A DNA stretch of 64,000 nt from Echinostoma caproni (lineage: Eukaryota > Platyhelminthes > Trematoda > Plagiorchiida > Echinostomatidae). Shown here piece by piece: positions 7,441 through 61,180 of the stretch. Location: NCBI GenBank assembly GCA_900618425.1, contig UZAN01039518.1, positions 58,132-122,131 on the forward strand, in the 5' to 3' direction. Every line of letters starts with the position of its first letter. Positions within the stretch are counted from its first letter, which is position 1. A program made the position numbers and the translations under genes. The notes under the pieces are model-generated. The model was not told the origin of the DNA and searched no databases. It saw only the letters and a list, made by a program, of their open reading frames with translations.

Positions 7441-7560
7441 CTAATTCGTCCTGTTTGAGACGCGTTAGCAGTGGGTACATTTTTGTGTCCCTAGCAGGAC
7501 TCAAACCGCGAACATATGGGTCGGGACTTCAAACCGTTACCCCTGAGCTACACAGTTCTT
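7441..7560 (-). mobile_element. tRNA-derived SINE with hammerhead, copy 1
   Basis: On the minus strand a tRNA-like head has an A box (TAGCTCAGGGG, 7550-7540) and a B box (GGTTTGAGTCC, about 7507-7497). About 30 nt on come CTAACGC (7468-7462), GTCT / GGAC stem II (7461-7458 / 7451-7448) and GAATT. This is the Smalpha layout: a Pol III promoter followed by a hammerhead. Core changes (G5 to A, A9 to C, GAAA to GAAT) make cleavage improbable. CACT before the core and AGTG beyond the single N at 7440 could form part of stem I. Confidence 0.65.
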
Positions 7561-9224
7561 CCAAAGTTTTCAGTAGTAAACCACACATTCAATCTGCATG
7601 ATGAAAGCAATTTCGCGAAGAAATGAAATACCCCGATTTAGTTCACATAGATGTCTTTTCCAGTTGCTCACGGTCACTGGTTCCGGTTTCCATCAGTGTC
7701 ATTTTCTCTATCTCTTCAAAAGTATCCCTGTCTTGTTCTATTCGGTCAGTACATTATCGCCACCGTGATTCCAATACAAGACATGGGTACTTGGAGTGAA
7801 ATTATATGTGCTGTTTTTTTTCTCATCCATAATTAATATCTTTTCCTCCGGCAAACTGTTTTCTTCTGTGTCAATTTTCCACTCCGAAAACAGGGCACGA
7901 TTAGTAGCTAAGTGTTGCCGCAAGCTTGAAAGAAGCTTCTTCGGCTGGTGGAATTTTTGCGGTAATGTTTACTGGGTTTTCATTGTTCAAGATTGGTGAT
8001 TGTTATACCGACACTTATTGTTCGGATAAACGCGTGTTCTGGCAGTGTTCGGCTTGCTATTCCACATATACCACATTCCTGTTTGTGACACAAATAATAT
8101 TCAATTGTTTGTACCGTCTAAATGAAAGTGCTCACGTGATTGTCGTGGTATGCATTATTTACAAGTAGTTTCGAACAATCGTTCCGATACCACAATATCA
8201 CGATTTGGAGTGTCTCGTTCATGCTATCTTGTGGGACACGTAACAGTTGCTGATAGAGCTCCATGCTGAGAAATATGAAATACTAGTTAGGGTTTCAAAC
8301 CCGTTTTATTCAGGTCATTCAGTTTGTGTATAATCACACAAAGACTACTACAGTTCTCTGTTGCCTTCGTGCTCAACTTTTGCTTTAAATACGTGAATGA
8401 TGTAATACTTAGCGCGCTCTACTCAAACTCTTCATCCCATGGGACTATGCGTGTTAAATAGTTGATAATTACCGATTGATCGTTACATTGGAATCCAATA
8501 CAAACCCCCAGGATATCATTTTATCCTTTGTGAGTGACTTCAGTTATGCGATTATGTGAAATCCCTACACCTTTTGTTGTTTTTCTGTAGTGGTCCGATG
8601 AACCACCAACCTTTCATTATGTGTGTCGAAGACATCTTCGATCAAAACCTCTCGTAACCTGTTCACGTGGTAAATGCATTCCAGAAGGTTTACGAAGCTT
8701 CATTTTCATTCATTGCTCTTCAAATTGTTTTAGTCCCCATTCATCTAACAAAACTTTTATTTCGGTCAGTGGGTTTACCTCGTTGGACTTATGAGTATTG
8801 TTTTATTTTCTTTTGGTGGATTCAATAAATACACTGAACTATTCTCCAGATTGTTTAATTTTTACTTTCATCTACAACCGTGTAACTGATGAGAATGCTG
8901 CATGTTGCAGTTTAACATTCCGAAGCCCGTAAAATATCTCCTCTGAGATTGCATTTCACAGTTCTCATCTCGTGCATGCGGATCTCTTCTCGCTGCATGC
9001 TCTATTATCCACACTCTGAGGAATACAAAAGTTCAATTGTCCACTGTTTGACTGGATCCATCAGTCGGATGTGAGCACATTGTTTTGGCAAACAGATTAT
9101 TACCAACCTTGTAATTTATACTATTTTTCTAGTCTTATTTTCTTTTACTAGTTTTTCTTATTATATTACATCTTATTTGATTTATAATGATCACTGATCA
9201 AGTATTGAACGCCAAATGTGGTAA
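7561..9224. other. Unassigned DNA
   Basis: Short plus and minus frames of 60-80 codons without motifs. Pyrimidine-rich and AT-rich tracts occur, but no supported gene or repeat was recognised. Confidence 0.35.
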
Positions 9225-9483
9225 CTTATTTGTAAATGTTTGTTCACCAGCCAAAGTGAAATCTTTAGTGCCTGTGTAGTGATGGTGTTCTACTTCTTTC
9301 CGTTCGTCTATATAGGATTTTATTCAGCAAAATTCCCGTCCCACGTCCCCGCGTTTATCGGCCTAGTTTGGACTAGCACTGGAGGGATATTGTGTTTGGG
9401 TCTCCGTCCGGATTCAAATTCTCAGGTTTATTCTCGGATCACGACGTGACCTCTTTAGTTGTATCATTTGATCCTTGAGTTTC
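9225..9483 (-). repeat. Interspersed repeat R1, copy 2
   Basis: The reverse complement aligns with 4680-4965, beginning ACTCAAGGATCAAATGAT and passing GAGGTCACGTCGTGATCC, GACGAACGG and CACTACACAGGCACT. It ends at TTGGCTGGTGAACAAACATT, where the hammerhead-like core is degraded. The 69-codon plus-strand frame over it is a shadow also seen, antisense, over the other two copies. Confidence 0.7.
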
Positions 9484-10054
9484 ATTAACGTGGGCATCTG
9501 ATGGAGTTCAATTCACTTGTATAGTACGTTGATCGAAAAGTGCCACTCCTCAAATGATTCTCTGGTTTGTTTTGAGGGTCAGTGATTCTCGCTGAATCGA
9601 AGTCAACTTCATTGAGTGGAATGTTCGAGAGTGGGTCATGCTTCCTAACCGTCAGTCGTAATCTAGGAATACTTATCGACAATTTTTCCATTCTATTCAA
9701 TATAATTTGCAGTTAATTCTATAACTAGCCTTGATCTTGTTTTTTCATTGTTTTCTTATTTGGTTTTGAAAAGTTTCTTCATACGAACGCGGTCTTTTTG
9801 TGGGTTGACATGAATTCAGTATGGTCTGAGCTGTGTTGCAGTCGTTCTCAAAACTTCTTTGATAAACTGTAAACTTTTCGTTCCATCCGTTGTTTGTTAC
9901 ATTATTTGGGTTATACTTTGTTTCATCAATTTATTATTACAACCCGATAATAGTCAGTAACATGAAGATATATGTTTCTTCCGCTTCTCTGAGTGTATAT
10001 GGACCCTTCTGATACAAGAACTTTTGTGTCTTTGCGCATGATTTCTTTTGAAGT
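9484..10054. other. Unassigned DNA between R1 copies
   Basis: Nothing recognised. One 71-codon minus frame (9485-9700) has no known motif. Confidence 0.35.
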
Positions 10055-10330
10055 AGAAAATGACGCAATAAAAGTGATTGCGCCGTGATCCTAAAACGGA
10101 ATAAGAAGACCGTAATACAGACGAAAGTGCGCCTCCTCTTTCTGTTGGTTTAACAGTGAATCAGGGTGAAAACAACTACAAATCAGGGACAGAAATTTTA
10201 GCGAAGAAAAAGCTATATCAGTGAACGGATAGAAGCAGAACACCGCCACCCCACAAGCACTAAAAATATCATCTCGTCTGGTGATGAGATATTTGCGCAA
10301 GAAGTATCAAGCTCGGGAACTGAAGGCAAG
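10055..10330 (+). repeat. Interspersed repeat R1, copy 3
   Basis: Aligns with copy 1 from AAATGACGCAATAAAAGTG through GTGAACGGATAGAAGCAGAA to TCTGGTGATGAGATATTTGC and AAGCTCGGGAACTGAA. The hammerhead-like part is decayed (CTAAAAATATCATC for CTGATGATGTCACC). Confidence 0.7.
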
Positions 10331-11000
10331 AATGTGATCGATGGTTGTACATAAAGCGATTAGTTGAGTTGCAAAAAATTCCATATTAGATTAACGCGGA
10401 TACGCACTGATTCGAAATCGGTAAGCGCTATAGATAGATAACGATCGGTTCTGCACAGTATACTCCGTCAGTCGGCATACACTGTCATCTTTATCCAACN
10501 TCGATGTTTTACTGTGCCATGGGCTGACAGTAAAACCTCCAATTATTGACTGAGGTAATCACGTCAAAACCAGTCATTTGTTTGAATACTTTTGAAACAC
10601 GGTCTTCCAGTTTTTCTGTTTGTGTTACATTGATCTCTCACCATTGGCACACGCGCGGGTCTGCGACATTTTGTATTTCGGAACCGAGTTGTTAAGAGTG
10701 ATTAGCGGATGAACTTGGGCCGAATGGAAATGTGGTCCGCATTTGTTTTCTCATTCAACGGGTCGAAAGGTGGTTCTAAAACGTGCATAAGAGAGAAGTG
10801 GTGAATTAACAAGTAGAACTTTCGATTGAATTCAAACAAACAAACAAATAGTACAAATTTTATTTACTTCACACTGCAACCGCGTTCAAGCACAACATTA
10901 GAGTCTCCCGGAAGTCCCGTGTTGCAACTCCTCGACCGCTTCGGGTCGATCCCAGCTCCATTCCTGAAAAAGGATCGTTTAATAACATGGACTAGTTTAA
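10331..11000. other. Unassigned DNA
   Basis: Nothing recognised except a single-base N at 10500 and a B-box-like GGGTCGATCCC near 10945 with no clear A box. Confidence 0.35.
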
Positions 11001-11002
11001 TT

Positions 11003-11031
11003 TATTATTTTATTATTATTATTATATACCA
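11003..11031. repeat. (TTA)n microsatellite
   Basis: Imperfect TTA repeats. A related ATA/AAT tract lies at 11340-11376. Confidence 0.8.
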
Positions 11032-11376
11032 TTCTGATAAAATATACAATAAATACAGAAGGAAGGAAATTATCATCATTATGTTATTATATAGGGTACC
11101 TCATTACGGTCGGGGGTGAGCATCTTGGTATTGGCTGGTAACCTTCCATTATAACTCAAAAAATGCTCCTTGGTTAACCAAATGCTTCGGTTATGGTTTC
11201 CCCAAGCAAGTCTTTCTACTCTGGTCTGGATGATCCGGCAGTATTCCGACCACGGGCAGGTCATAAACTCATTCATTTGCTATACAGATTTTGTACCGGG
11301 TCTCCAACATGTTTGCAATATAACGATTACCTAGGACTCTAATTATAATAATAATACCACCAATAATAATAATGAT

Positions 11377-15100: not shown

Positions 15101-15123
15101 GTAACTGGAGCAATCGCGCGTAT

Positions 15124-15190: not shown

Positions 15191-15199
15191 GCAGTTCTT

Positions 15200-16440: not shown

Positions 16441-16699
16441 AGTGAAAAACAGTATCTTTGTGCGGTCCAGTTTGAAGTCACATATGCTAGACAATGCATA
16501 TGCGCTAGTCGGTTTGTTGTCGTGGGTTTCCCTCGTTGAAGGTCTTTCATTCCTCATACGCGAGATGTACTTGAATGCGTCTGAATGAAAAATACAACTC
16601 TTGCCTGTATATTTGAATGGATTTATTTAATTAGAACACTCTCAGCATACTTCTGTCTCATGCAAAGTTTTGGACATCAGGATCCACTTATTCGCGTTT

Positions 16700-16830
16700 G
16701 GCGCCCAATCTGTAGAGTTGCATTTCGAGTCTCAGCCTGTAAACATACAGACAACCAGTGCTTACGAGTCCCAACAAGGACGAAACAGGTAGTCAATGAT
16801 CTTCATGGACCTGAACACACGATTAATCTA
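16700..16830 (+). mobile_element. tRNA-derived SINE with hammerhead, copy 2
   Basis: A B-box-like TTTCGAGTCTC (16723-16733) precedes the ribozyme segment by about 30 nt, as in copy 1. The core reads CTTACGA (16761-16767), GTCC / GGAC stem II (16768-16771 / 16778-16781) with loop CAACAA, then GAAAC (16782-16786) and AGGTAGTC. It differs at only three places from the Smalpha-type block CTGACGAGTCCC...GGACGAAAC. G5 is changed to U, and stem I is not preserved, so it should be inactive. The 123-codon open frame over it is a shadow. Confidence 0.7.
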
Positions 16831-20160: not shown

Positions 20161-20639
20161 CCAGTGTGATTCAGTGCTCACGTGATGTCCGTGGTTTCTA
20201 CTCCGAGATTCACATTTTGTGATCAGCGCATACTAACAAATTTCTAGGAATTGTCAGGAATTGTCCAAGTGCAAACGTTCACTTTTGTTAGCATCTCAGA
20301 CGCAGAAGCGCATTAATAACAGTTTTGGACGAGTTGTTCCAGTTGTTTGTCCATAAACGGCAAAAAAATATAACTATGGACGAATGACAGCTAGATTTCC
20401 TCTGACAGGGCTGCTCTTCGTTCGCATTCCCTGTTTAGTGCTGTGCTGAATCCATTTGCGACCAATCAGCTCTGAGTGCGTTGATTCACTGATTGCTCAT
20501 GGGACACGAACGTGTTACACTAATTGGAACAGTTAATTTCTCATCGCCATGAATATAGCGGACATTTTGTTAGAACCAAGTAAATACATCAATGTTAGGA
20601 TTATACAGTGAATTACATCGTGTACAGGCGTGCAGTGAA

Positions 20640-20790
20640 AATCCGGGAAACACTGCACAGCTGTTTTGACCTGGTCGGGTCTCATCAGCAGTGTGAATCC
20701 AGTGAACCAATTCGGGATCGAACTTGGAATCTCAAAGATAGAACCCAAGTATACCACCCACCTAACTTTCGGGCGGCTGACCAAACCGCT
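20640..20790 (-). mobile_element. tRNA-derived SINE with hammerhead, copy 3
   Basis: On the minus strand the tRNA-like head has an A-box-like region (GGTGGTATACTTGGG, about 20758-20744) and a clear B box GTTCGATCCC (20723-20714). The hammerhead spans 20694-20650: stem I ACACTG / CAGTGT (six pairs), core CTGATGA, stem II GACC / GGTC with loop CGACCA, AAAA in place of GAAA, and a small stem III AC-AGCT-GT. It is a complete type I layout. Two lesions, G12 to A (20667) and G at the cleavage position (20656), should abolish cleavage. Continuing similarity past the ribozyme with copies 4 and 5 supports one family. Confidence 0.8.
20650..20694 (-). ncRNA. Hammerhead ribozyme, near-complete but mutated
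   Basis: See the SINE entry for its context. All three helices can form with perfect Watson-Crick stems I and II. CUGAUGA is intact; the second core strand reads AAAA. The two-pair stem III is typical of minimal retrozyme-like and SINE hammerheads, which are thought to work as dimers or with loop-loop support. Confidence 0.7.
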
Positions 20791-20869
20791 TTTCACTTTT
20801 CTGTACACACAGTATGGCATAACCCATCTTTGCAAGTTTATTGAGTGCATCACACCTCGCTCATCTCAG

Positions 20870-23800
20870 CACTAGTCTGCGGGACTATCATTCGGATTAC
20901 TCGGGATTATTACTCGTATGATAACTCGAAGCAAATCCTCCTCTAAGCTCAAATCAAATAACTACTGATGGCTTAATGGTCACAACTAGGCTTACTAATA
21001 GGACCGATAGTTGTTTGTCTCACTTCCTGACATCAGTCGTTATTGATTCAAACCACACCGTTGGTAATATGCCACAAATTTTAACTAGATGCCTCTGTGG
21101 GTAATTCCACCTGAAGCTGTCGACATAAGACTGACACCGAGATTTGGGCTAACAACCCATATTGATTTTTCGCCATATTTAATCGATGCTCTAGTCGCAT
21201 GTCTTAATGATGCACATTCCAAAAAAGTTGTGTAATTTTCTCAGAGGATTTCTTTTAATCTACCTCAAGTAGCTAAACTGAAAATATTTATCTGCCATTC
21301 ACAGCTTTGTAATAAATAGGTTCAGACTCCAAAGTGAAAATTGAATGACTTTGTAATGTTTTTGTGTTCCGTTTTGGATCATCTACGAATTTCTTGCAGA
21401 GCTTTCGAAAATTCAACAGCAATCGCGCTATGCGGAATGGAGGCAGCTGGCAGCAGAATGCACATCTTGAGTTTTGTTTACAAACTTTTGGACAGCCCTA
21501 AGCTGCCGCGATTGTATCAAGTGATATAACCAATTTGAGGTTAAACCGACATAACGAACGACAGCGAAATGTGGTTACGTGAACAGCCGATCTGTCCAAA
21601 GCATTTAACTGCTCCCTAGTCCACATACACCCGTAGATTAGAACATTGAAGTGCCCTTTTTAATTTTTGCTCTTGTTAAAAATTAGGGTCGAGGATTTCC
21701 TCCAGTTTTGACTGGGATTTTACTTTTCTTTAGTGTAACTGGTCAAACCCATTGCAGCGTTTTGTTCTACCCATTCAAATGATCAACTAAGAACGTTCAC
21801 CTATGCGTTTTCGATCTGCCACCTATCAGAACTGAAAGTGACATTATCCATTCTCCAAGTAGCAAACAGATTTTGCATTTCTCTTAGGCCTGAGTTGCAC
21901 CAGTTACTTTGCACAGATAAAAACGTGAAAGTCTGCAAAAGCAAAGCAGTTGATTACAAGGGGTTTTCATGCCACAATGAAGACTTAGATGCTCCGGATT
22001 GACTGTTTTGCGAAGGATTGTAGCTATGCCCGGGATTAGGGTCATGATCAACGGCGAAGTAACATATATCAATTGAGCTGATTTCTGCTTAAAGCGTTGA
22101 AAGGCAATCGATTCTCTTCTGGACCATTGCTGCACAAGATATACCGTTGCTCTGCTTCATTTAGAACTTCACTCGAGCTCCAAGGAAACAGGTTTTCGTA
22201 GGGAACTGGACTGTCTGTGGTAAATGATCTATCCCAATGAGACCAGGTTCACTTGGAGACTTCTTGGTGCAAAAATGGGTTGATGATGATTATGCAAACC
22301 TTGTATGAATGATGATGCAATCCATCCGATTATATAAGAAGGTGGTGTTCTCTTTCAGGTTTCTGAGTGAGGAGAAGGTAAACGCGATCGATTAAAGAAG
22401 GTAGGAATTCTTCACTTTATTTGGTCTTCTCAACGTCTTCAACATTAACTCCTGTACCCAGGAGTCTCACGATTCCATCGGTTGTCACAAGCCTAGGCTA
22501 GATGTATCTCATCTAACAGCTTTGGTCCAAGTCGTACACATTTGACAGATCAAATCTATCTAGATTCAAACCATTTTACAAACAGCTGGGTTTATTTGTC
22601 AAGCTATACAAAAGCTTGGTTTATTGCACATCACACCAGATGCTCTCCAGAAAAACAGTGGACACCTGGTGCTGTGAGTGAAACATAAAATGTAAGGTAT
22701 AGATTCACATGCCACTAGGAAAATAAAACTCATTAGATGAATGACAATTCATGCCATGAAGTGATCTGTATCCGTCGCTCTTGTGTAGCGAATTCGATTG
22801 CATAAATCATATGAAAATGAAGTTGAATTGCAAACGGGGTATTAGTTGAAACATGCTCTTGAATGGTAAGTAATTTCAGTGTGGAATGGGTTCACTCCCA
22901 ATTAATCATAAATTGTGTGCAACTGAAGTCCCGTTTTGCATGGCACCTAATTAATGGGGGGCTTTTCGTTAAGTCTTACTTCAACCAGTAACATATTCAG
23001 AACATTTTATAACACATTTCGACTGGTTACCAGTTAAATGGATAGAAAGTATCATGAAGCTGTTCCAACCTTGCTAGCTATTATCCACGATACAAAACCT
23101 TCCGCTCGCTGAGAATCTAACGCAGGATATCGCCGGTTTATGAGTGACCAGTGTTGTGTCCCGTTTAAGTAAGCAATTAATCATGTAATGAATTAGGTTG
23201 TTTGTTCCATCTCAGCATGTGCATATCTGCCCGTTCTATAGGCTAGTGAGCAAATGAGGGTGTCAACGAGTAAGCAGGTAGGTAGACCAACAGTAGGTAC
23301 ACGTGTTACATGACGTCAAAATGCAGTTACGCTGAATATTCAGACAGTCAACGAACTAATCAGTGTGAACAGTTAATACGCAAATAAATAGGGATGTGTT
23401 TTGCAAGAAGAAAAATCACGAACACAACTCTGGTATTGGCGCTGATAGACGGGCGATATACTCTGAAATTAATCGGGTATCGCGTTTGCATTTTGCTGGT
23501 GACCTTCATCTCAGGGTCGGTTTAGAGTTGAATTGATATGCTGGCATAAGGGATGAGTTCCCAACAAGTTGAAACCCGCTGTGCACAGTGCCTCCCACGA
23601 TTGTGCTATAGGTTTTCTTTTGTCCTAGAAGCCTGAAACCAGTTGAGAGATTTATCAAAATGTATTCACCTAGCAGAATCAGTGTATCATTCCTTCCTCA
23701 AAAAGAGTGTAAAATCACTGTGCAGCTATTTCATTCGACTTGCTAAACATCACGAATATTAGGTAAACCAAAAATCTACTGGTATTAAAATCGAGGCTCG

Positions 23801-26889: not shown

Positions 26890-27490
26890 TTCTGTGTGCT
26901 TAGCTGCATACATCTCCCAGGTTGGTGACAATGTTCTTACAGTTTGGCAGCCAGGTCAACTTGAATCAACGAGGAGTAGGCTTTATCGTAATCTGCTCTG
27001 TAGCGTTTTCATCTAATGTCAAGACAACATTGTTAAGTAGCTTTCACTCATCGGAAGATCAATGATCACTTAACAGTTAAATGCAGTTAAATGCGATGCA
27101 AATCTGTGTGGTGGCCTACTAAGAGCATCGGGCAGTTGTGCATTTTGTCTGTCATTGCAAAGATTCCCACCGCATTCATAATTAGCCATCTTTTTATCCA
27201 AAATACAAAATCACACTTTTATGATCTGTTTATACCACTTCTACACCTTTCTTCTAAAAACCTTCAGCCAAATGTGCAATATTTTACCCTCGATACATGA
27301 TACTTTACCTGAAACCGGGAGCTATTTAGCCGCAACCCGTATTCCGTCAGCCTCAACACAAACTTTAGCCATGCCCCCCTGAGAGAGCCAGATCAAACAA
27401 TATACGGAACTAAAACAGCGTTGAAAATTTTGATTTCCTACAAAAATCGATATTGCAAAGCTTACTGAACGAATGAGAAGCACATGCGAA
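26890..27490. other. Unassigned DNA left of the gap
   Basis: Nothing recognised. A 69-codon plus frame (27091-27300) has no motif. Confidence 0.35.
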
Positions 27491-33800: not shown

Positions 33801-35070
33801 CACCTAGATTGGATAATCTTTATTGATTCAAGTTGTTTCAATATAAGTCATTTCAAGTCAAACATCTTAAAACCAAAATATTTCAGCAAAATGGACGATC
33901 TGGGATACACAGACCAGGAAATCGTTTCCTGGACGAGAATGAGAGTTCACTCATCCACGGAAGTACTGGAGTTTTCTTGTTATCAGAATATCTAACCTAT
34001 CTGCGGCTATTCCATCGAAACGTTCACTTCTAGCAATAGTTCGTTTATATTGCTTGTTCTATGGCATGTGACATATCTTGTAGGAAAAGTGAGGTCAAAA
34101 ATAGAAAAGTCATCTGGGAGATATCTAATAGCCTAAGGTAAGATAGAGAACCTTATTGATGGATTTCACCGTTACTGAATCTATCGTGTTGATTCCGGAA
34201 TATAGTTTCCTCAAATCCACGAATCCGTTAATTGATCCCTTCGTAAGGTGTCATGTTTTTAAAGAATAAGTGAACAGTACAAGCTTATATTTGGAGAATT
34301 CATTTCGGATACATGAATTTTGTCATAAACAGAGCACAGAATGCCTACACCAAAAGGCTGGTAAACATTGCGCAGCTGATTCAACTTTGTTGCATCTATA
34401 AACCACAGAACAAACCCATCAAGCCACTTGAAGACTGAAAAACGGAACTAACAGATCAAACAAATATGTACTACTCGCTGGACTACCGGCAGACTTAGCA
34501 AACTGTATCACTTCATTCATAAGTGATACAGTACCCTCCCAAGCTTGTTTTTAATGAAACAATATACGTCGTGTTTTACGGTCTCCACACGGTTTCAATA
34601 AAAGTGTGCATCAAGCCTTCCACGTATATGGAGTTTGGTGATTTCTTTCATCTGCTGGTTAATCGTAATTTGTTCTTCACTCATTGTGCTATTCAATAGG
34701 CTTCCTATTTGTCCTGTATCGAACGGCTTACCGGTATGACATTTAATCGCACATATAATATTTAACTTTGCCCCTTTTCCAATAGTTATCTCGCGATAAT
34801 GGATAAGGATGGTGTTAAGTTGTGTACCATCTTTATTTCACGTTTCTGAAGAACTTGTGCCGCCATGGTTCAAACTTCTTTAATTCAGCATCAGATTTAA
34901 TCTGTTGTTGTTACCGATTTTCTTTTTCTGTTCAAAATTTGGGTGAAAGAAACTGTCAATTAAAATTTTCGGGCGGCTACTGGGAAGAATCAAAGGAAAC
35001 GAAAGTTCTTTTATTATATGATGAATTCCGTCGTATAAAGGCTAATTGAAGGATGAACTGAAAAGCTTAG
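30850..35070. other. Unassigned DNA
   Basis: The longest plus frame (32481-32807, 108 codons) shows no known domain. A GATCGATCGATC run lies near 31680. No supported exon, TE motif or RNA gene was seen. Confidence 0.35.
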
Positions 35071-35079
35071 AGGCTGGGT

Positions 35080-35190
35080 ACGGCTTTTTCGACCGGATTG
35101 GGTCTCATTAACCGTGCGCCAGTCCATTGGTCCAACTGAGGATCGAGCCAGGGTAATCACGAGTAGAATGCAAGCATACTAACCACGCGA
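35080..35190 (-). mobile_element. tRNA-derived SINE with hammerhead, copy 4
   Basis: On the minus strand GTGGTTAGTATGC (35186-35174) is a strong A box and GGCTCGATCC (35149-35140) a strong B box. The hammerhead segment follows at 35115-35080: stem I ACGG / CCGT, TTAATGA, stem II GACC / GGTC with loop CAATCC, then GAAA. Stem III and the cleavage site are deleted, and C3 and G5 of the core are changed. The spacing from B box to ribozyme and the flanking CCAATGGACTGG match copy 3. Confidence 0.75.
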
Positions 35191-35199
35191 ACACCGGAC

Positions 35200-37440
35200 A
35201 ACTGATTAGAATGCTGTTCATTTTGCGTACACGCGGTACAACATAACCCTCTAAGTGCTTATGAACAATGAAGTAAGTCCAACAAAAAGCAATTGTTTGA
35301 AGAACGCAGAGTCAGCACAGATCCCGTGGTTATTTTCATCGTTTCAATAAATAAATTCGAGCCTAAAAATTAGGCTAGTGGTAGTACTTACGCCTATCGT
35401 AACAAACAAGTGACAGTCAATGTGATGTGTCCGTCATAGAATTATATCGATCGACATAATCTTGTATGAATCATTCCGACGAAACGGACGAAACACGTCC
35501 GTCCACGACCATGGTAGTTGTTGTCGCTCGGCTAAGGTCACGCTGTATCTGCTTTGTTCAAGCGAGAAGTGTGCTTTCCGCCTCCTGTGTATACTGCATT
35601 GGGTGATATGCTTTTCTCTGGTATGTGCAAATTTTGCGCTGTGCACACATTTTGCACCCCAGAGAATACACCATGCCAAACCAATGTTACAATCCGAATC
35701 ACCAAGAGCCTCGGCTCGATGCGGTTCTGGAACCCCAAAATTGAACATGGAGAATGGAATTCCGGTGAAAATCAAGTCGGAAATGTTTGGAAACGTTTTG
35801 TGTCAACTTTGGTATTTGTAGACTTTATACGAAATGATCAGTGTGCATTTGCTTCAATTCAAGGTAAAACACATCTTAGCTACCACAAATGAGATGTTGA
35901 CCAAAAGGACAAAAAAGTAAAAGCTGGTGCTAAAAAATAAATACAAATAAAGTGTATGCTTAGAATAGAACCTGACTGACTCAACCTCTTTTTCCAGATC
36001 TCTACCAAATACGGAAAACAAGAGATCCTAAAGACTATAAAGCAGGATACATCGGTGCGTCGGGAAAACAGCTCATCATTACCTAATGCAGGTAAGAACC
36101 ACTGAAACTTGTTTAGACAAACTTGCATTGGAGGATTTGTGTTGACCAGTAAGTTTTCCGATTAAATCGTTAATTGAGATTAAAGATGTATGACCAATCA
36201 ATAACGTGTCTTTTTTTGCTAACCTTTCAGAAATTTTCTACAATACTGAAATGTTGGCAGGACAACGGTGAAGTAAAATTTGAAGATTGCACTGCTCGAT
36301 TAATGTGGAAATTTTTCTTTGCAGAGTTAGGAACTTTAGTTAAGTTTGTGAGTATGGGAAGATAAGTTCGTCAGTTTTCCCACAGAAAGACCACTTAGGA
36401 TTGTTGTCTCACTTCAATGCCTACGTATTTCTCTGAATTCATTCTACATGAAGGCGCATTTTGACACTAATCTTGAGAAAGGAATGCAAGAAAAAAGCAC
36501 TCCGCAAATTTGATTAGGTTAGTGATGAGTGCAGATTGAGAGGAACAGATGCGACATTGGCGATAAACTATTTGCAGATCACAAACAACCACGCACAGCG
36601 TACGTGATGTTTCGAAACGTGCAGGCGCAATCTTTTCCTCCGCGCTATCTTCGATGATGAAGAAGACAATCTACCAGTGTGCATGTATGACGTTTTGACC
36701 GGACATCAGTGATCAACAACGGAAATCTTTTTCTCGGTGAGCAGTTCAATGCAGTGCCCAAACGACTTGTACGAGAGAAACCATGAAACACAACACCGTT
36801 GCAGTAAGCCGCAGTAAGTTTAGAAACGTTCGGGAGTCCTATCCCAATTCGGGAGTAGATGGGACTTGAATTAAAGCGCGAGAAGATTCGGAGGATTGAT
36901 TATGACTCTATTTAGAACTTATTTGTATCCTGTGTGGGTATAGCACGAATTGAATAAACCACGAGATAGAAGTCAACATGTACTCAGATGGTGAAGTTTC
37001 CCCAAAACTCCATGGAAATTTTCGTCCAATGAAACCGAAAGACGCAAAATGCACGAGCCAAAAACAAGGTAAAATCTGACTGATCGCTAAACGAGGCCAC
37101 ATATAAATTGGTTATGATGGTGTTTCCAGACTGCACACAGCAGGAATGCCATTATTACAGGCTAGACACCAGGCAAGAACAAGAATATCACAAATATTAG
37201 AAACCGGTGTCAGATTGATAGTTTGCCTATTGCGCCAATCACGGAAAATTATCCAATCAGGTCACAATGATGATCGGACGGAAATTTTACTGTGTGATCG
37301 ATCGGAAGAGGGTAAGACACTCTGAAACAAGAAAGCAATCGCACTTCAGTAGAACGTGTTTATTTCTGCATTTACTACTCTTCTAAATCAGTTCCCCGAT
37401 GACAGATAGAGAATCAGGCGGCAATAAAGATGACCTCTTG
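35200..37440. other. Unassigned DNA with one weak exon-like segment
   Basis: Overlapping frames of 112-119 codons lie on both strands at 35434-35892 without recognised motifs. At 35998-36091 an acceptor (CTCTTTTTCCAG) and a donor (GGTAAGA) bound a 94-nt segment that is open in one frame, and a strong acceptor (TTGCTAACCTTTCAG) lies near 36230. No family is recognised, so no gene is called. Confidence 0.35.
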
Positions 37441-40220: not shown

Positions 40221-40239
40221 TCGCATACCTATACCTTTT

Positions 40240-40673
40240 CAACTTCAAGTGAATCCGCCGTGGCTTCAACTGAATCCAACCAATCACACTCCATTGGTGT
40301 TTCGGCCGTCAAATGTCACCGATTGGACCGGGTCTGTCTAAACCCCGTCCAGTCCGAATGAACTAACCTCTCTGCAACCAAACAAAAGTACTTTTTGAGT
40401 GAGTTACCGAGCGAGGATGAATGTTTCGGGGGGTGAGTGGGTGGATGAGGTGGGCCGTTTCTCCCCGCCCCCGACACACCCGTTCCAACTGGGAACGTTA
40501 TGTTCATGATGGTTGATCGAGTGTGCGTCATAGATACGAATGAACGAACCCGGAGTTAATGGACCTCTGTCGGTCAGGTAAGGAAGCGAATCACATCAAG
40601 ATGGATCGATAAGTCGGTCACCATGCCCAGACGTGAATGTATTGCATGAGTGGAGTCAGTCCAAGCACTCAAT
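40240..40673 (-). repeat. Large inverted repeat, left arm (PLE-B 3' terminal repeat)
   Basis: The reverse complement matches 41372-41800. Over the 216 bases 40316-40531 the predicted translation is identical to that of 41515-41730 and I see no base difference. Indels occur on both sides (AAGGAAGCGAAT against CA at about 40580; a 20-nt insertion beyond 41745). The outer part matches the sequence that trails the PLE-B endonuclease. Paired terminal repeats in inverted orientation are known for PLEs. Confidence 0.85.
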
Positions 40674-41371
40674 AATGTGAAGTGTCTACACAACCACCCA
40701 GATCAGTTCAGATTAGAAAAATGTCACTGCTTTCCACCTTTATGATAGGTAACTCGTTTACACAATCTTTCGTGGTAACACATATGGGAAATGTACTGCA
40801 AAGTGGCATCCACGGTGCCACTGAACCTTTTCTCTTACTCGACATTCAGTATTAAGACAACCATGGATAGAGTATTTAATCGACCTCTACTTACCACCTC
40901 ACGGAGCACCCGGTACAGAGTTATCGTCGCTTGTGAGATCATGGATAACAGCAACTCATTCGTATCACCACCGGTCTCATTCACTAAACTATATGTGATC
41001 GCACAGATGTAATCAGTATGTGAAAAAATTCGACGGGTTGAGCAATGTTATAATAAACATAAGAACCTATGCGATAAAGCTGAGTAACGAAGAGAGAGGC
41101 CGCAGGTTTCAGATCGTTGTCATTGGCATTGCAGATTGAGTGTATCAATCAGCCAAGGCATGACAGAAAAATATGATTTCTGTTAGCTAGTGAATAGGTC
41201 CGAATTTGATCTTATAATTCAGGTGAAATACTATTACTTTTTTCACTATTGTTTCCATTGTTAAGTATCTTGTCAAGTGTGCATTTCAATGTCAGAAATA
41301 CGTAGGCAATTGCATTTCATTCAAAGGAATCGGTTTTATTCGAGAGAAACTCGGCCTCAATGGAATTGGGT
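40674..41371. other. Spacer between inverted arms
   Basis: About 700 bases with no recognised gene. The 73-codon frame at 40791-41012 has no motif. Confidence 0.4.
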
Positions 41372-41800
41372 AATTGAGTGCTTGGACTGACTCCACTCAT
41401 GCAATGAATCATGCTCACATTCACGTCTGGGCATGGTGACCGACTTATCGATCCATCTTGATGTGTGCCTGACCGACAGAGGTCCATTAACTCCGGGTTC
41501 GTTCATTCGTATCTATGACGCACACTCGATCAACCATCATGAACATAACGTTCCCAGTTGGAACGGGTGTGTCGGGGGCGGGGAGAAACGGCCCACCTCA
41601 TCCACCCACTCACCCCCCGAAACATTCATCCTCGCTCGGTAACTCACTCAAAAAGTACTTTTGTTTGGTTGCAGAGAGGTTAGTTCATTCGGACTGGACG
41701 GGGTTTAGACAGACCCGGTCCAATCGGTGACATTTGACGGCCGAAACACTAATAATCTTGTGGGGTTTCTAATGGAGTGTGATTGGTTGGATTCACTTGG
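41372..41800 (+). repeat. Large inverted repeat, right arm (PLE-B 3' terminal repeat)
   Basis: Second arm. On the minus strand it follows directly after the PLE-B GIY-YIG frame, which ties the repeat to that element. It contains a GC-rich stretch (GGGGGCGGGG near 41573) unlike the AT-rich surroundings. Confidence 0.85.
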
Positions 41801-41802
41801 AG

Positions 41803-42393
41803 TTATGGAGCATTTACTTGAATTTTAAAAGGCATAGACTGTCCCGTTTTAAATCTATACAGGGGTTGGAAAGCTCCGGTCACTTTTACAATGTGATTAG
41901 TGTCGACAATGTACGACACGGCTTCACTTGTGATTGTCTTAATTTCTCTACTTCGCAACCACGCGGGGTGATGCTCACGGATGCACTGGGACAAACGCTT
42001 TGTCGTGCGGCCAACATACTTTGCTCCACAGGAGCAAGTGAAAGAATAAATACAGAAAGAGGCATCAGAGTCGGGCACGGTATTCTTCAACCGTATATGT
42101 ACCAACGGGCTAGATGTGAATCGAGTTTGAAGCTTAGCCTCGTAGAACGTTTTGTTGATGGCATTTGATAACCTTGTATGCACAGCCTCTGTCATGGTGT
42201 CGCCTATAAATGGTAAAGAAATGTACAGAGACATCTTCTCAGCAATACCCTCTTGGTAAACGCTTCTTACCTTTGCATCACAGATTCCACGAAGCGCTCC
42301 GGGTATCCATTCTTGGATAAAGATATTCCCTTCATTCTGGGGTTCTTCAGCCAGCATGTCTTTGGCCAAACAGAGCATGAGGTTCTTCTTCAT
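41803..42393 (-). pseudogene. PLE-B linker and GIY-YIG endonuclease
   Basis: A 196-codon open frame, the longest real coding segment of the window. It holds a linker (SLYISLPFIGDTMTEAVHTR), a conserved Cys pair and the GIY-YIG signature SCGAKYVGRTTKRLSQCI (about 42030-41977) followed by REHHPAWL. It ends FKTGQSMPFKIQVNAP. The usual C-terminal helix block (PPLCVQKEFVK in the copy at 55505-56130) is missing, replaced by the terminal repeat, so the domain is shortened. It would nick target DNA if intact. The frame may be open only because it is recently derived. Confidence 0.85.
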
Positions 42394-42429
42394 ACTGAAT
42401 GGTACAAAGCTACGGAAATGAATGTACTG

Positions 42430-43200
42430 CCCATTCCAAGTCGCCTTCTTGTGTACTGACCGCCGGATAGACCCGGCATCATAACGAGTTAGGCAAACAC
42501 CTAAATATGCTAGTTGATTGTTTACTTCATTTTCTTGAATTTCTTGAATTTCAAATTCCGATGCGCAGCATCAATTTTCATTGAAATGATCTGGCAATAT
42601 GGTGACAGTCCGTTGTAGAATCGACCACACACAAAATATCGTCTACGTAAGGTTTGTACAATACGCATTGTTCGATGTGTTTTAAGCGGACCGTTTTGTA
42701 TTTTAGACGTGAAAACATCGACAAACAAGCGTCTTAGCGGGGATCTCATTGCTACACCGTCCTTCTGGCGATAGATTTCCTCATGGAACTTGAATTGCAC
42801 ATTGTGAGTGCAGAAGAGAAACAATTGTTTCAGGTCATCCGTTAGTAGGCTTACCTTGATCCCGTTACTTCCAAAATAGATACACAAATAATCAATTGTT
42901 TCGCCGATTGGAACATTCGTGAACAGAGATGTAACATCTAGCGAAAATATGTGGCGACCTTAAAGCCACTCAAGGCGTCAATGAGATTGATTGTACCCTT
43001 AGGGTTCCAGTAGACGAGCCAGCCATTTGGTTACCGCTTGGTAAGGAGAGTTGCAAAGTTCTAGGATTGGCCTGAGGGGAACTCCACTCTTATGTACTTT
43101 AGGCAGCCCATACAACCGTGAAATCCTAGTCCCTGTTGGACGAATCCGTTCAAAAGTGGCGCTGTCTATTGAGCCCTGTTGTTTAAGTTTTCGTTATGTG
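42430..43200 (-). pseudogene. PLE-B reverse transcriptase (frameshifted)
   Basis: In order on the minus strand: YGLPKVHKSGVPLRPIL (about 43112-43062), SPYQAVTKWLARLLEP, FSLDVTSLFTNVPIG (42949-42904), IYRQKDGVAMRSP (AMRSP at 42752-42738, G to R in the usual AMGSP) and the catalytic YVDDILCVVD (YVDD 42649-42638). Every block is diagnostic for PLE RTs. Frame changes occur near 42965 and between AMRSP and YVDD, so the protein is broken. It leads into the endonuclease frame. Confidence 0.9.
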
Positions 43201-55500: not shown

Positions 55501-55504
55501 GTGT

Positions 55505-56130
55505 TTAGTCCGAATTTGCCCAAGATTGGGTGGGGCGGATGAAAATGGGATGCATGGAAGACCATTGGACACACAATATCTTCACAAATTCTTTTTGAGC
55601 ACACAAGGGTGGATTGTGAATGTGAATTCCCACTGCCAGGATGCGATGTTTAATCCACTTAGATTGTTGTTCACAAACCTGGTATAGGGGACGAAACGCT
55701 CTGGCCAGGTCAACTAAATTATCGTAAAATATTCCCATTGATACATAAGAATAAAGTTATTTTTTCTTATGCATCAAATAAATTACCTGACTCAACAAGG
55801 TGTGAACAGATTGCGCTCGTAATTGACTTTGTCACCCCAGTTTGTAACCAAGTCGGGCGATGCTCACGAACTCAAGTGATTGCTTGTGCGACCAATATAC
55901 CTTGTTCCACAGGAACAAGTGAAGGAGTAAACACAGAATGAGATCCCAGAAATAGAAACTTTATATTTGAGCTGCAGCCTTATGGCCGATTTGGATGCTA
56001 ATGTGACACGTAATTTCGTTGCATGGAAAGTTTGACTGGTCGCTCTTGTCAACATTCAAGTAACTGTTTCCGGCACAGTGTCACCCGTAAATGGCAGTTT
56101 TAAGTAAAGGTATTTCTTTTCTAATCCAAC
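55505..56130 (-). pseudogene. PLE GIY-YIG endonuclease, family B (decayed)
   Basis: On the minus strand a linker remnant precedes FCVYSFTCSCGTRYIGRTSN (about 55945-55886), which has the Cys pair and an intact YIGRT signature. Then, in the next frame, FRPLYQVCEQQ and HNPPLCAQKEFVKIL (55620-55570) form the C-terminal block. The linker side (NVDKSDQ...) aligns with the PLE-B segment between GDTMTEAV and SFTCSCG. RT sequence was not recognised to the right of 56130. Frames change near 55860 and 55740. It is the best copy for the C-terminal block of this family. Confidence 0.8.
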
Positions 56131-56139
56131 AATTTCCCC

Positions 56140-59100
56140 TTTTTTGCCTGGCGTTTTAGTATGCTGCCCATCAACCACAGATATCAACACGACAGGACAA
56201 GAACTGAGTGAGACCAATGATCTTATCACACTGTTTTAGACGACTGCTCCTCATTGTCACCTCGTACACAAACATACACGAACGCAGTTACACCAACCAA
56301 AGATTGCTTTGTGAATTGTCACTTTTGTCCAAGGAGTACCATTTCGAAAACGGTTGTTTGCCCGATTTTGCTCTCCTCCTTTCACTGTGGGTATGTTTCA
56401 TCTGTTACTCAAGGTATATTCACTCATGTATCCTTTTGCTACCTTGACTGACACTGAATTAGTCACATATCATATGTGCAATAAACAAATGGCTTCTTCG
56501 TTTAACCAAAAACCAGTTTAGAACTTACTTTCGAATTAGGTAAATGACTAACACGGAGAAATTCCATTTATCCACCCACGGTAGTCAGGGGTGATCCAAT
56601 TGCGATACCGAGTCCGTAGGGTGATAATCGTAAAGTGTTCACCCTCTCCATCGCCTGATGCATGCTCCGACAAGTCCATCCGGTATGATTTAGCTGTTTC
56701 ACCACATGCTTGAACTAGTTGTACAGTGTGCGCACCTCAAGTGCGAGAAATGAGGAGCACTCATGTGGTGGGTGAGTCATTAAAAACAGTAGCCAAGTTA
56801 CTGGTTGAATTGATCATAGTGGATACATTATTTTCGTCGAATTAACCTAAATCAATCTCAGATAACAGAGTGTGTCAGTTTTGCTAATAAAGATTCACAC
56901 ATAGCTTTTTTAGAGAATGGGCATTGGCTGAACTCATTTGATTATTCATAGACACCAGCCATTGTTCCAATCCTTCGGAGCTCGTTAATTCCCGGTGATA
57001 AATTGACTGAGTCATTTCATCAAGGTGTAACTGTCGATTGTTGTGTTGAGCTCCGACCAGACGGTTTGTTATTCAGGTCGGCTGGGTTAAAAAGGTACTC
57101 CCCAAGGACGAAACAGTTGTCCAGTGCTGCTTGAAGGGAATCACACATATTTCCGTTGAAAACAATCCGCGTGCTGTGCATTCAGAAGCTTACAAAAGTA
57201 GAGGCAAGCCTATGGAATATTCGATGCAATAAGCCCATAAGTCTGGTCCGCGAATATAACACTTAAGATAAACCGTCTAGTACAGACCCAAAACACGTAA
57301 TTTAAAACAAAGTCTGTTCTTCTTTCGAAAGAATCAGAATTGGTCGTCAGAGATCTCAAAATGTTGTTGATATGTTTAGCAAGTATACATGGGATCCAGC
57401 ATTCCGCTATTACTGTGAAACATCGTGAGAAACTGAGGCCATCAATGGACGTGCATCAAAATAATACTCACATATGATACCAATGGTAACGTACCACAAT
57501 ATTATTCTGTGCACCTATTATACAGTTATGCGCAAAAAAGGACATTCGGAAATCCAAACTGCTTATTCCCAATTAAAGTACATATTCAACCATCAAAATT
57601 TTAAGTTGACCTCCAAAACCATGAACGAGACACACCTTAATTGACACTGACTGAGCAAGTACGGCTGCGCTCCCACGTGTATACCCGAGGGATTTGCAAT
57701 AAATACCTCCGAAGAATTCGTTGCAGTGGTAAATATTGATTGAAAGAAGGCTACTGTTGTGGTGTGTACGAGTGAATAGATTAGTAAACAACGAGGTTCA
57801 TCCATGGGAATATTGATTTCGTAAAATCTGCCCGTGTTGTCTGTCTGTGGGCACACAAACACACTTGCTCACTCAGTCTCACTTGAATTGCGTCCGCTCA
57901 TCAACACTAAGAAGCAACACACATTTGCTTTTCCGGTCGACCGCGTACTTTAATCGGGAATACAAAATAATTTCTTAAGAAACTTTCACCCATACCTGTA
58001 CAAACACTTCGATGAATTCCTCTCTTATTTCCGGCCTGTACACACGCATGGACACACACGCAGCCGTACTCAGCAAGTAATTGGGACTTTTTAATCGGGG
58101 CTTGTTCTGCTCCGTAGGACTCGCGACCTACAAACCCCTTGGTCAACGTGCCTCATCTGTGCGGTTTCCATCCCGCTATCCTCCGGTTACATTCGAACCA
58201 ATGTGAACCAATGTAATTAGGTCTTTTGCCGTGGTAGGTTCAAATGCCGTGAATGTAGCCGACGCATAGTCACTTGCGGAGTTTATCTGGGCGAACACAA
58301 CTCAGGACTTATAATCTTTTGTTGTAAACAGTCTTCATTTCATAGCTTCAACCGGTAAGCATATGAGCATGCAAGGGCATCTCGTTTGATGCTCTAATCC
58401 AGGCAATTCCTGAAATTTGTGGGGAATAGTTTACACTTTGCCTTTGCTAATCTTGCCACACCAATTCCACACTTTTGGCCTAGTGACTGCAGGTAAAACC
58501 ACCGTTTCTCATTCCGTTCTCATATCAGTTCACCGAAAGCAGCACCTTAGGCAGAAATAGTCGAATCTGGCTATTATTTGAGACTGGCCTGGAAGGAATA
58601 CAAGCCTGACTGCCCAAGGTTGTGCTTCTACTGAGGCTCTCTGATTGGGGGTGAAGTGGTTTGATCAAAGTGTGAAATGAGGTTCCAGTGATGTTAACAA
58701 ATAATTAAAGTGGAAAGGAGTTGTACCAGGTATTAACACAAAAAATGCCTTAATTTCTCACTGGCGAATCTTTACATCTCACTCCCAACTCAGTATCAAT
58801 AATGTGATTTGTAGCAAACTGATACCAAAAGGCTGAGGATGGCTTATGCAATACAGTACACTATTTTAAAGGAAGAGGGGATATTTTATTGACCTTGAGT
58901 GTATGCCTATATGCAGTTTTACAAAACCTTTCCTGGATTGTTACATATACAGAAATGAGCCGTTCGTGATGCGGTGTCGAACGGTGTGGTTTTCTGGTCG
59001 ATTAAATAGCGCTCGCTTTGTTAAGAATGACTCGTCAAAATAATCGACCTCCATGTCGCATATACGTGCACACAAATACGGGTGTACCTACACAAAGGCT

Positions 59101-60280
59101 GTTTCGACTGCACAGTCATATTGTGGTCTCTATCAATACGTAGCTCGGCACCTCAGCTCCACTCCCCTCAAACACACACACACGACTTTCGATTAACGAA
59201 ATGATTCATGGGCTGTACCATGTAGCACCAAAGCAGTCCAAACGTGCACATGTTGGGACAAACTCTAATCCATTCTGGTCTGTTGTGCGTAGACGTGTCT
59301 AACGAGCCCAGACGTGTTTTTAAACTAGCTCGATGTAAATCTATGGCCCAGGCGGATGCACCAATTATTCGGACACTTGTCGATAACATTGCATCGAATT
59401 ATATCGCCGTACAATTCCTCGTCGGAGGTGCCCGAAAATGAGGATATATGATGGCTGAACCCGATAAATCTACTACCATTTATCTGTGTAATTAATTGAA
59501 GAGGGAATCGGATCGCTCTTGGACTAAACAAGATAGTTTTCACATCGCTAAATCAGATGCAATAGAATGATATTGGCCACAGTCAAATTACCGTTTTTAA
59601 TTTCCAATGAAACGTTTCACGGTTCTCATGATTGAGTCTCACGAACAAGTGACTAAATTCGCTAAAATTTCACCTTTAATTCAACGTGGTTGACCCAAAT
59701 TATGCATGCCCGAAAAATTCATGCGACGGCCAATCGATTGCCTTAGTTATTCCAATAAGCCATGTATGCAAAACATGGTCAATAGGACTTAGACTATTTT
59801 GCATGCATCCGGAAGAAGTGCGTTTTCCAATGCGTTTCTACTGAGGAATTCCTAATAACGGCCTTTGCATGTTGGGACTGTCTTGCTAAAACTAGAGAAT
59901 GAACATTCAATATCTGTGTTTATGGTCAAGTCGATGAGCCGTGGCTACTCAGTTCATCTAAGAGACCTGGAGAAGTGTGATTTTATGGGTTGTCTTCAGA
60001 ATACTCTGCTCTCTAGGATTACCGGTTGAAGCAATGGGATGTACCGGACAGTTTGAATGTGGTCCAATTGACTGGACGTTGGGCCTCAAGACAGTGCAGC
60101 TTTTGCACACCCTGCTCAGTACATCGTTCGGATTTCGTCTGGCCACGGGCTTATGACGTGATTTCTCAAGCAAAAACGCCTGTTTCCAATCGTTCAACCT
60201 CGTTGTGTATCGCCCACGATTCAAACAATCATTTGATTCTTTTATCAGAATTATGTCATAAAAAGATGTCTGAGTCATCC
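56140..60280. other. Unassigned DNA
   Basis: Over 4 kb with frames below 107 codons and no recognised domain. A B-box-like GGTTCAAATGCC occurs near 58238. A decayed LINE may precede the short tail at 60288, but no RT motif was readable. Confidence 0.35.
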
Positions 60281-60287
60281 GGATGTG

Positions 60288-60312
60288 CGTACAATTACAA
60301 TTACAATTACAA
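60288..60312 (+). repeat. (TACAAT)n short tandem repeat
   Basis: About four units of a hexamer that also ends the LINE at 52869. It probably marks the 3' end of another LINE copy on the plus strand, preceded by the palindrome CATCCGGATG. Confidence 0.75.
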
Positions 60313-60319
60313 GTATATA

Positions 60320-61050
60320 GAACGCGTAATATTCTTTACGCTGACGCCTATATCCAAACATGTATACGAGTGATTTTTAACCAGTAGACATGAACAGGGT
60401 TAGAAGGATTTGTGAATACTTCGGTACAGGGAACCTACACGGTATACAAAAATTGAGGCACACCTATTCACTTTGTGAAGGCTTTTGGTGACGGGAAAGT
60501 GAAATATCTGCCCAACCCCTTGCCTACCTGCCGACCCAAATTATTCGTCATATCAATCCAAATCCGCCAATGTACATCGATATCTGCAAGGATGATGAGA
60601 ATCAGGCGTTGTTGTTTAGGCTAAGCTCAGCTCGGAGGTCACGTGTTCATTTTCTAACATCTTATCCTCATTTTCTCACTATTTTGCTACCCTAAGCAAT
60701 CAACCACAGCCATCTTCCTGAAAACTAATTGCGCAGTTTTCACTCTAAATAATAGAATTGCTACCATTAAATGTGATATTCTCTTTACGAAAGTGATTAT
60801 GTGAAAAGTATGAAGTGACTCGGAGAACACATGTTCATTAGATTCCATTGTAATGCGCCAAACCTTTATACTATGGGTACACTTCACTTGCATATGTTGG
60901 TGGCAGTGTTCTGTAAGTGAAATGGTTCCAGTTAAGAAATGCCTAATTTACACCACTGCACTAGGTGTATTTATCTTTCAGTACGCGAAGTGGCCAGCAT
61001 AACCGATTCCTTAAGGTCAGCTCAAGATAACCCAGAGGTTCCAACAGGTG
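60320..61050. other. Unassigned DNA
   Basis: Nothing recognised. Confidence 0.35.
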
Positions 61051-61054
61051 GAGA

Positions 61055-61180
61055 TATTTGTGGACAGCTGTTTCATCCTCTTTGGGACTCTACAGTATTG
61101 CCTACGTTTGTGTCCCTGTCAGGACTCGGGCCAAACTTACTATTCTAAAATGTTCCAACGGTTGCCTTACGATAAGGGAC
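61055..61180 (-). mobile_element. tRNA-derived SINE with hammerhead, copy 5
   Basis: On the minus strand a degraded tRNA-like head (CGTAAGGCAACC, then GGCCCGAGTCCTG at about 61132-61120) is followed by GGGACACAAA, as in copy 1. The ribozyme is CTGTAGA (61095-61089), GTCC / GGAT stem II with loop CAAAGA, GAAA (61074-61071), then AC-AGCT-GT and C (61063). The cleavage triplet GUC and the GAAA strand are intact. A6 of CUGANGA is U, and stem I has lost pairing. The trailing TCTCCACCTGTTGG fits the other copies. Confidence 0.75.
61063..61095 (-). ncRNA. Hammerhead ribozyme, intact GUC and GAAA, damaged stem I
   Basis: Complements the copy at 20650-20694: there stem I is intact but GAAA and the cleavage base are changed, here the reverse. 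Both share the AC-AGCT-GT stem III, which suggests the ancestral SINE ribozyme had it. Confidence 0.65.

Follow-up and report, generated by a model that had tools for sequence, protein, structure and literature searches.

Unequal head-to-head insertions of a hammerhead SINE family in Echinostoma caproni

The closest described relatives of the repeats treated here are the Sm-alpha elements of Schistosoma, the non-long terminal repeat (non-LTR) retrozymes of metazoans, and the Penelope-like elements (PMC2770079, PMC8490949, PMC3846280, PMC7229834, PMC7761336, and PMC2912911 are cited from excerpts throughout). The Sm-alpha representative W36.2 is 335 bp long (PMC8490949), and a tRNA-Gln origin was reported for Sm-alpha (PMC2770079). 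Penelope-like elements were called a strong candidate for the mobilizer of animal retrozymes, with hammerheads, tandem occurrence, and co-occurrence being common to both (PMC7229834), and according to the excerpted part of a review from the same group, retrozyme repeats show no conserved motif betraying an autonomous partner (PMC7761336). Penelope of Adineta comprises an inverted and direct pseudo-LTRs (pLTRs), a 9-bp duplication, and an optional 31-bp tail (PMC3846280). The purified Penelope-like enzyme of Anolis makes cuts in both strands, extends each of them, and begins reverse transcription at internal positions of the RNA; two start sites were observed, the sequence separating them constitutes the tail, and ribozyme mutants left in vitro insertion unchanged (PMC11167929). 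Here, a family of short interspersed nuclear elements (SINEs) carrying a hammerhead ribozyme is described in 64,000 nucleotides of the Echinostoma caproni contig UZAN01039518.1 (the whole stretch is referred to as the window) and in the genome assembly. Many of its copies consist of two arms joined head to head, with outer ends that differ from each other.

Anatomy of the genomic insertions

The assembly (426,516,399 bases in 12,689 contigs) contained at least 66,429 hammerhead candidates in a loose first-look search, and all 74 candidates that were scored with the Rfam hammerhead model (RF00163) exceeded its gathering cut-off (best score, 60.6 bits). CTGACGA, stem II GTCC/GGAC, GAAAC, and GTC at the cleavage site were present in all of the 30 best-scoring loci that were fetched. 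As judged from their sequence, the genomic copies have the features of a type I hammerhead (core, NUH cleavage site, three helices, stem I open), whereas the five copies initially recognized in the window fall short of them. The expectation of a preliminary description of the window, that it holds a diverged hammerhead SINE family with many genomic copies and intact cores in part of them, was thereby largely borne out. At E ≤ 1e-3, a total of 20 fetched stretches with 134,272 non-N bases contained six insertions and the window eight, and the reversed-sequence control of this profile search gave 0 matches. N accounted for 65,728 of 200,000 sampled bases. Rough extrapolation suggests a copy number on the order of ten thousand. 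The family is dispersed across the genome, with one direct tandem (L015) among the copies read; it is probably a Sm-alpha-like hammerhead SINE or non-LTR retrozyme, a known kind of element.

The 30 ranked loci, which were picked by their intact hammerhead, belong to type A, one of two subfamilies (see below). The type A unit deduced from long copies measures ∼322 nt, with approximate borders, and no open reading frame (ORF) was seen in it. Its parts are as follows (u, unit position):

Leader, 35 nt
tRNA-like part, u35-105
Hammerhead core, from u122, with the cut near u155
First tail, to u200
Second tail, to u322

In L006, L015, L018, L027, and L028, an arm exceeds one unit by crossing u322 back into u1 (in L015 as the direct tandem), and the RNA template would therefore have been tandem or circular. 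The ∼322-nt unit thus agrees with the definition of a non-LTR retrozyme, a tandem unit of ∼300 nt with a type I hammerhead; long tandem arrays were not seen in the copies read.

In 18 of the 30 type A loci, the copy directly adjoins, on its 5′ side, a stretch of the unit in inverted orientation, compared with an adjacent inverted stretch on the 3′ side in only one (L030; sign test on 18 versus 1, 7.6e-5). As judged by eye, the 5′ junctions of L001, L004, L012, and L016 likewise include 8-20 nt from the u322 end in inverted orientation, which would raise the count to 22 of 30. The outer ends of the pairs, taken from local alignments with a precision of some nucleotides, were unequal in 15 of the 18 pairs, one lying at u186-209 and the other at u313-322. 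The exceptions were L017, L022, and L024, and in none of the 18 did both ends belong to the same class. L018, L019, L027, and L028 are mirror images in that the ranked intact ribozyme sits in the arm ending near u320. The 12 one-armed loci end at u186-209 (seven), at u313-322 (two), or elsewhere (three). Pairs beyond the 30 ranked copies that fit the unequal ends are the second copy in L004 (322/205), L038 from a random sample (318/206), and the window copy at 56911-57165 (320/200); the SINE pair of L051, ending at u320 and u158, does not fit. Type B also forms head-to-head pairs (L028 362-705, L029 2216-2646, and L034 2-267), with arm identities of 77.7%, ∼69%, and ∼64%, respectively. A common motif underlying both outer end sites was considered and dropped: among seven loci tested, only L018 and L027 gave a hint (31 and 39 per 1,000 shuffles, post hoc), and L028 (95 per 1,000 shuffles) and the other four gave no support.

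Flanking direct repeats were sought within ∼25 nt of the outer ends, and a score of at least 8 was considered a clear repeat. Such repeats, ∼8-15 nt long, were present at 11 of the 30 loci and at 8 of the 18 pairs, compared with 1.9% in mismatched-locus controls. Examples matched at 12 of 12 positions (L017 and L020) and at 14 of 15 (L028), and a single copy in the window (site 1, see below) has an exact 13-nt flanking repeat. With direct repeats enclosing a fair share of the pairs, such a pair is most readily understood as a single insertion. Within a locus, the arms resembled each other more closely than across loci (means, 0.87 vs 0.81; 13 of the 18 loci had enough overlap), which is expected if both arms came from one or closely related RNAs. 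Within these 13 loci, arm identity ranged from 0.72 to 0.97; it was the highest of all comparisons in two, and L023 and L029 showed no excess. The unequal head-to-head pairing appears to be new for hammerhead SINEs, although the element class itself is already known; a literature search, conducted mostly at title level, found no description of unequal head-to-head hammerhead SINE insertions.

The 5′ starts of the arms concentrate at u235-273 (21 of 57 arms vs 6.9 expected, p 1.5e-6, for an interval picked post hoc). Near many of these starts, at u∼213-250 of the type A unit (e.g., in L019 and L015), a GGGGAATTAACGATCTCCC hairpin is followed by an AC-rich stretch. The start site of Anolis Penelope was described as an AC-rich stem loop (PMC11167929).

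A candidate mobilizer and its alternatives

The insertion anatomy is best read as that of a hammerhead SINE that would be moved by a Penelope-type enzyme priming on both target strands, to which we assign a probability of roughly 0.58; the partner is inferred. In this reading, the window copies are fossil members of a non-autonomous family of retrotransposons. The SINE RNA, likely made by RNA polymerase III, would serve as the template of a Penelope-like enzyme that cuts both strands of the target. Complementary DNA (cDNA) synthesis would begin from each strand at an internal site of the RNA, near position 200 on one and near position 320 on the other, and each cDNA would terminate either at a favored 5′ stop close to position 250 or at some other point, before the two were joined head to head. 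The hammerhead still lies within the copied template and would therefore trim or circularize the transcript, the ends of the insertion being set otherwise. The layout of a Penelope-type insertion, with a head-to-head repeat, a tail-like end, and one duplication, is matched by the unequal ends and the flanking repeats in the proportions given above (15 and 8 of 18). Candidate partners are abundant, with at least 2,925 candidates for Penelope-like elements in the genome, of which 150 were scored.

Several observations weigh against this reading. The 30 ranked loci were selected through intact hammerheads, 10 of their 18 pairs have no clear flanking repeat, and the repeats of the further pairs score below 8 as well (L038, 4; 56911-57165, 5; L051, 6). 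The type B pair of L028 looks symmetric, unlike the type A pairs, and the tRNA cloverleaf of the SINE is weak. The distance between the end sites is ∼122 nt, compared with 30-40 nt for known Penelope tails. In Anolis, the start sites are apparently alike on the top and bottom strands (PMC11167929), whereas one site per strand predicts otherwise. Arm 5′ starts were not enriched at the ribozyme cleavage site (u150-195; 8 of 57 vs 8.1 expected), so self-cleaved monomers are not visible as the template; the idea that the 5′ starts mark the ribozyme cut was dropped, this number being at chance level. Finally, in the one Penelope-like locus that was read (L051, with 1,210 N inside), the models match only a separate SINE copy, the best hammerhead match falls in that SINE copy and not in the Penelope-like element, and neither a target-site duplication nor the ends of the Penelope-like locus could be set. 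A Penelope-like element would be recognized by an ORF for reverse transcriptase and GIY-YIG or by pLTR homology; the SINE unit is too short for such an ORF, no homology was found to the Penelope copy in L051, and it was therefore not filed as a Penelope element. At L051 604-713, a perfect 110-nt palindrome lies just upstream of a 63-nt direct repeat flanking the Penelope ORF, and it is possibly the head-to-head junction of that element.

An ordinary long interspersed nuclear element (LINE) might instead move the SINE, the inverted arms then arising by L1-style twin priming (5′ inversion), a process in which the two arms are copied from different segments of one RNA. In the type A pairs, however, the same segment can be present in both arms (about u252-322 in L009 and L011), the far end of one arm lies near one site in most pairs, and inverted pairs make up the majority of the 30 loci, all of which is unlike twin priming. 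The direct repeats of 8-15 nt and the variable 5′ starts fit a LINE-type insertion equally well, a non-LTR-type reverse transcriptase ORF is present in the window (3512-3910, Pfam RVT_1), and 5′ inversion has been described both for L1 and for the retrocopies that it moves in trans (PMC2912911). The inverted arm could also stem from self-priming (snap-back synthesis), with a palindrome close to unit position 250 as the turning point; for Adineta Penelope, self-priming was inferred from palindromic sequence where the repeats meet head to head (PMC3846280). The clustering of 5′ starts at u235-273 is what such a process would produce, but it leaves unexplained why the far end of the inverted arm falls at u313-322 and that of the other arm at u186-209, and also the mirror-image loci L018, L019, L027, and L028. 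Both processes are possible for the arms; we regard the LINE as unlikely and self-priming as slightly more so.

That the pairs are chance neighbors, nested insertions, or assembly errors of a gappy draft is very improbable. The assembly is indeed fragmented and rich in N, the family is dense, and more than half of the pairs are without a clear flanking repeat; however, neither the head-to-head bias of 18 versus 1, nor the unequal pairing of ends, nor direct repeats outside whole pairs would follow from chance, and the arms differ in a way that a mirror created during assembly would not. A chance resemblance of the five window motifs themselves can practically be dismissed: every window copy has core defects and one alone passes Rfam, but leave-one-out detection, simulated windows (both below), and the intact genomic relatives refute this explanation.

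Priming by a Penelope-type enzyme on both target strands may also apply more widely. As a tentative proposition, to which we give marginally less than even odds, hammerhead SINEs of the Sm-alpha and retrozyme kind would be Penelope passengers, their RNA having two internal start sites, one per cut strand, and the unequal head-to-head pair being their normal form of insertion.

Copies and neighbors in the window

The members of the family and a candidate partner in the window are as follows. The type A unit model was built from seven genome loci outside the window, so that window scores against it are independent; the type B profile was seeded with sites 3 and 4 among others, and their own profile scores are not.

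7383..7556, minus strand, site 1, type A copy (unit ∼37-200; 137.9 bits to the type A unit model)
∼7426-7478, minus strand, hammerhead part of site 1, core damaged
7372..7384, no strand, first copy of the 13-nt exact direct repeat flanking site 1 (candidate target-site duplication)
7546..7558, no strand, second copy of this repeat, also resembling the tRNA start of the element
16694..16807, plus strand, site 2, type A copy (unit ∼57-170; 27.4 bits; stem II GTCC/GGAC intact)
16501-16580, minus strand, weak inverted fragment near site 2 (12.7 bits, type A unit model)
20615..20791, minus strand, site 3, type B copy (hammerhead 20650-20694, RF00163 37.2 bits)
23469..23597, plus strand, further type B copy, strongly decayed (weak, 14.9 bits, E 3.5e-4; E 1.7e-5 in another search)
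27035..27139, minus strand, further type A fragment, tail part (unit 148-252; 36.5 bits)
34319..34501, minus strand, further type B copy, decayed (35.4 bits; aligns to sites 3 and 4)
35028..35215, minus strand, site 4, type B copy (hammerhead region ∼35075-35110)
56911..56993, minus strand, left inverted arm of a further, two-armed type A copy (unit 217-320; 22.6 bits, E 8.4e-7)
57003..57165, plus strand, right arm of the same 56911-57165 copy (unit 2-200; 37.9 bits; hammerhead half decayed, core remnant)
61061..61132, minus strand, site 5, type A copy (unit 86-158; 52.3 bits; hammerhead 61054-61098)
41806..42956, minus strand, ORFs of a decayed Penelope-like element (reverse transcriptase part and C-terminal part; candidate partner type)

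The repeat copy at 7546-7558 may partly belong to the element itself. All five sites of the preliminary description were found again at their places and on their strands, and they align well over the shared layout that it had proposed (B-box-like sequence, short spacer, hammerhead core, four-pair stem II, six-base loop, and GAAA-like turn). As copies they are real; as a total, five was too low, four further relatives being present in the window. When four sites were used as the seed in nhmmer, the fifth was recovered each time (E values of 2.9e-8, 9.1e-6, 2.6e-10, 1.9e-6, and 1.5e-7; 21.7-36.2 bits), and no other non-seed place came near the left-out sites (next best, 13.9 bits). By comparison, 100 windows simulated with a first-order Markov model gave at most 11.9 bits and the reversed window 6.7, so that the five sites stand far above chance and the observation is real. 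Sites 3 and 4, compared pairwise, are homologous across ∼270 nt at 62.7%.

The motifs CUNANGA and GAAA had been stated for every site; the motif region is indeed there, but the exact motifs are not, all five cores being damaged. Site 1 has CTAACGC and GAAT, site 2 CTTACGA, site 4 TTAATGA, and site 5 CTGTAGA; in site 3, AAA replaces GAA and the cleavage base is G. A loss of the cleavage base in type B as a whole was considered and dropped, for this base is C, T, or A in other type B copies. Only one site, 20650-20694, passed the cut-off of RF00163; site 5 (61054-61098; 27.5 bits) and a sub-region of site 1 (18.0 bits) scored below it. The exact motif pattern had 0 matches in viral contigs. All 20 stem II cells of the five sites were paired; these sites had been chosen partly with that stem in view, and their whole-structure covariation score was matched by 8 of 500 shuffles, subject to the same partly stem-guided choice.

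Two subfamilies, GUCC/GGAC (type A; sites 1, 2, and 5) and GACC/GGUC (type B; sites 3 and 4), each have their own complementary stem II. Besides the Rfam-ranked copies, 40 family matches were obtained; the 27 with a complete core region were counted, and gaps excluded the remaining 13. Among the 27 are the five window sites as well as several profile seeds, and types were assigned by the better-scoring profile, the profiles including the stem II columns. The second pair of stem II was U-A in all 13 type A copies; among the 14 type B copies, 11 had A-U, and the other three had A-G, U-U, and A-C. Complete pairing of stem II was seen in 10 of the 13 type A copies and in 6 of the 14 type B copies, and CTGANGA and GAA were intact in 4 of 13 and 5 of 14, respectively. 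The two stem II sub-types with swapped base pairs, which had been predicted, thus exist as subfamilies; the swap is in effect one historical double change rather than repeated covariation.

The claimed derivation from a tRNA draws on the A and B boxes and on a full-length tRNA match that stays below threshold, and the cloverleaf is weak. Of the 30 loci, 15 have an exact B-box core ∼35-40 nt upstream of the ribozyme. In L014, the one young copy that was scanned, a full-length RF00005 match directly upstream of the ribozyme reached 17.1 bits (cut-off, 29), and four window sites scanned singly with the Rfam library gave no tRNA match at E ≤ 5. ARAGORN in default mode reported no tRNA in the window and none in 18 of 18 loci; relaxed settings gave in-register cloverleaf candidates in five of eight window copies, among 385 calls window-wide and with the register set afterwards. 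From the sequence, a tRNA origin of this half of the SINE is likely.

The closest named match of the Penelope-like ORF at 42525-42956 was an E. caproni protein (73% over 83% of the query), and another named match of the ORFs at 41806..42956 was from Paragonimus westermani (45%). A Pfam search with these ORFs gave no match above the cut-off, and their GIY-YIG reading was made by eye. Adjoining them is an inverted repeat (40229-41837) with arms of ∼400 nt, of which the largest stretch is 286 nt at 100%, and a spacer of ∼780 nt; a hammerhead inside it was considered and dropped, as a pattern scan showed none. ORF pieces at 1622-2599 (plus strand) resemble, by eye, a second Penelope-type element, with a YVDD-like motif followed by a GIY-YIG-like stretch, and had no Pfam hit. 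A decayed non-LTR-type reverse transcriptase occupies 3512-5409 (plus strand; Pfam RVT_1 in ORF 3512-3910, with which a protein search found no match), and stretches of 76-230 nt around 4202-5409 occur twice, ∼805-829 nt apart. An extra hammerhead suspected at 4920-4960 (plus strand; CTGATGA, six-pair hairpin, GAAA, and a 12-nt palindrome) was rejected on account of an extra base before stem II and a fold no better than that of shuffles. At 63040-63232 (plus strand), a (TAG)n microsatellite runs straight into the B-box-like GTTCGATCCC; its match to the B-box half is weak (16.5 bits), and no hammerhead is present.

Comparison with known systems

For the question of which element mobilizes retrozymes, the insertion anatomy described above provides genomic evidence. 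If true and general, the unequal-pair footprint would identify the long-sought mobilizer of animal retrozymes, and mapping where inverted pairs end and which repeats flank them offers a simple test that can be transferred to the copies of Schistosoma, axolotl, and mussel. The data also suggest that the ribozyme does not define the ends of the insertion.

Like Sm-alpha and Sj-alpha of Schistosoma, the family described here is a dispersed short element with tRNA-type sequence, a type I hammerhead, and a very high copy number (PMC2770079), and the loop II CAAAUA of the Rfam consensus resembles CAAACA/CAAATA of the E. caproni copies. The likeness is one of description only, and neither two stem II subfamilies nor head-to-head pairs are mentioned for Sm-alpha in the excerpts. 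With the metazoan non-LTR retrozymes, the family shares a ∼300-nt unit, a type I hammerhead, tandem continuity, target-site duplications of >4 bp, and Penelope-like elements in the same genome (PMC7229834); unlike them, it has a tRNA-like half, mostly dispersed copies, and head-to-head pairs. The 5′ inversions of L1 likewise have an inverted 5′ part within one insertion, but the recurrent second-start site and the overlap of both arms are peculiar to the family described here. From Penelope-like elements, it differs in that no ORF was seen in the unit, the hammerhead is canonical, the end sites are farther apart (∼122 nt), and no homology was found to the Penelope-like copy in L051. Common to both are a head-to-head arrangement of inverted and direct repeats enclosed by a single target-site duplication, a tail that lengthens one of the ends, and hammerheads, which in Penelope-like elements reside in the pLTRs (PMC3846280, PMC11167929).

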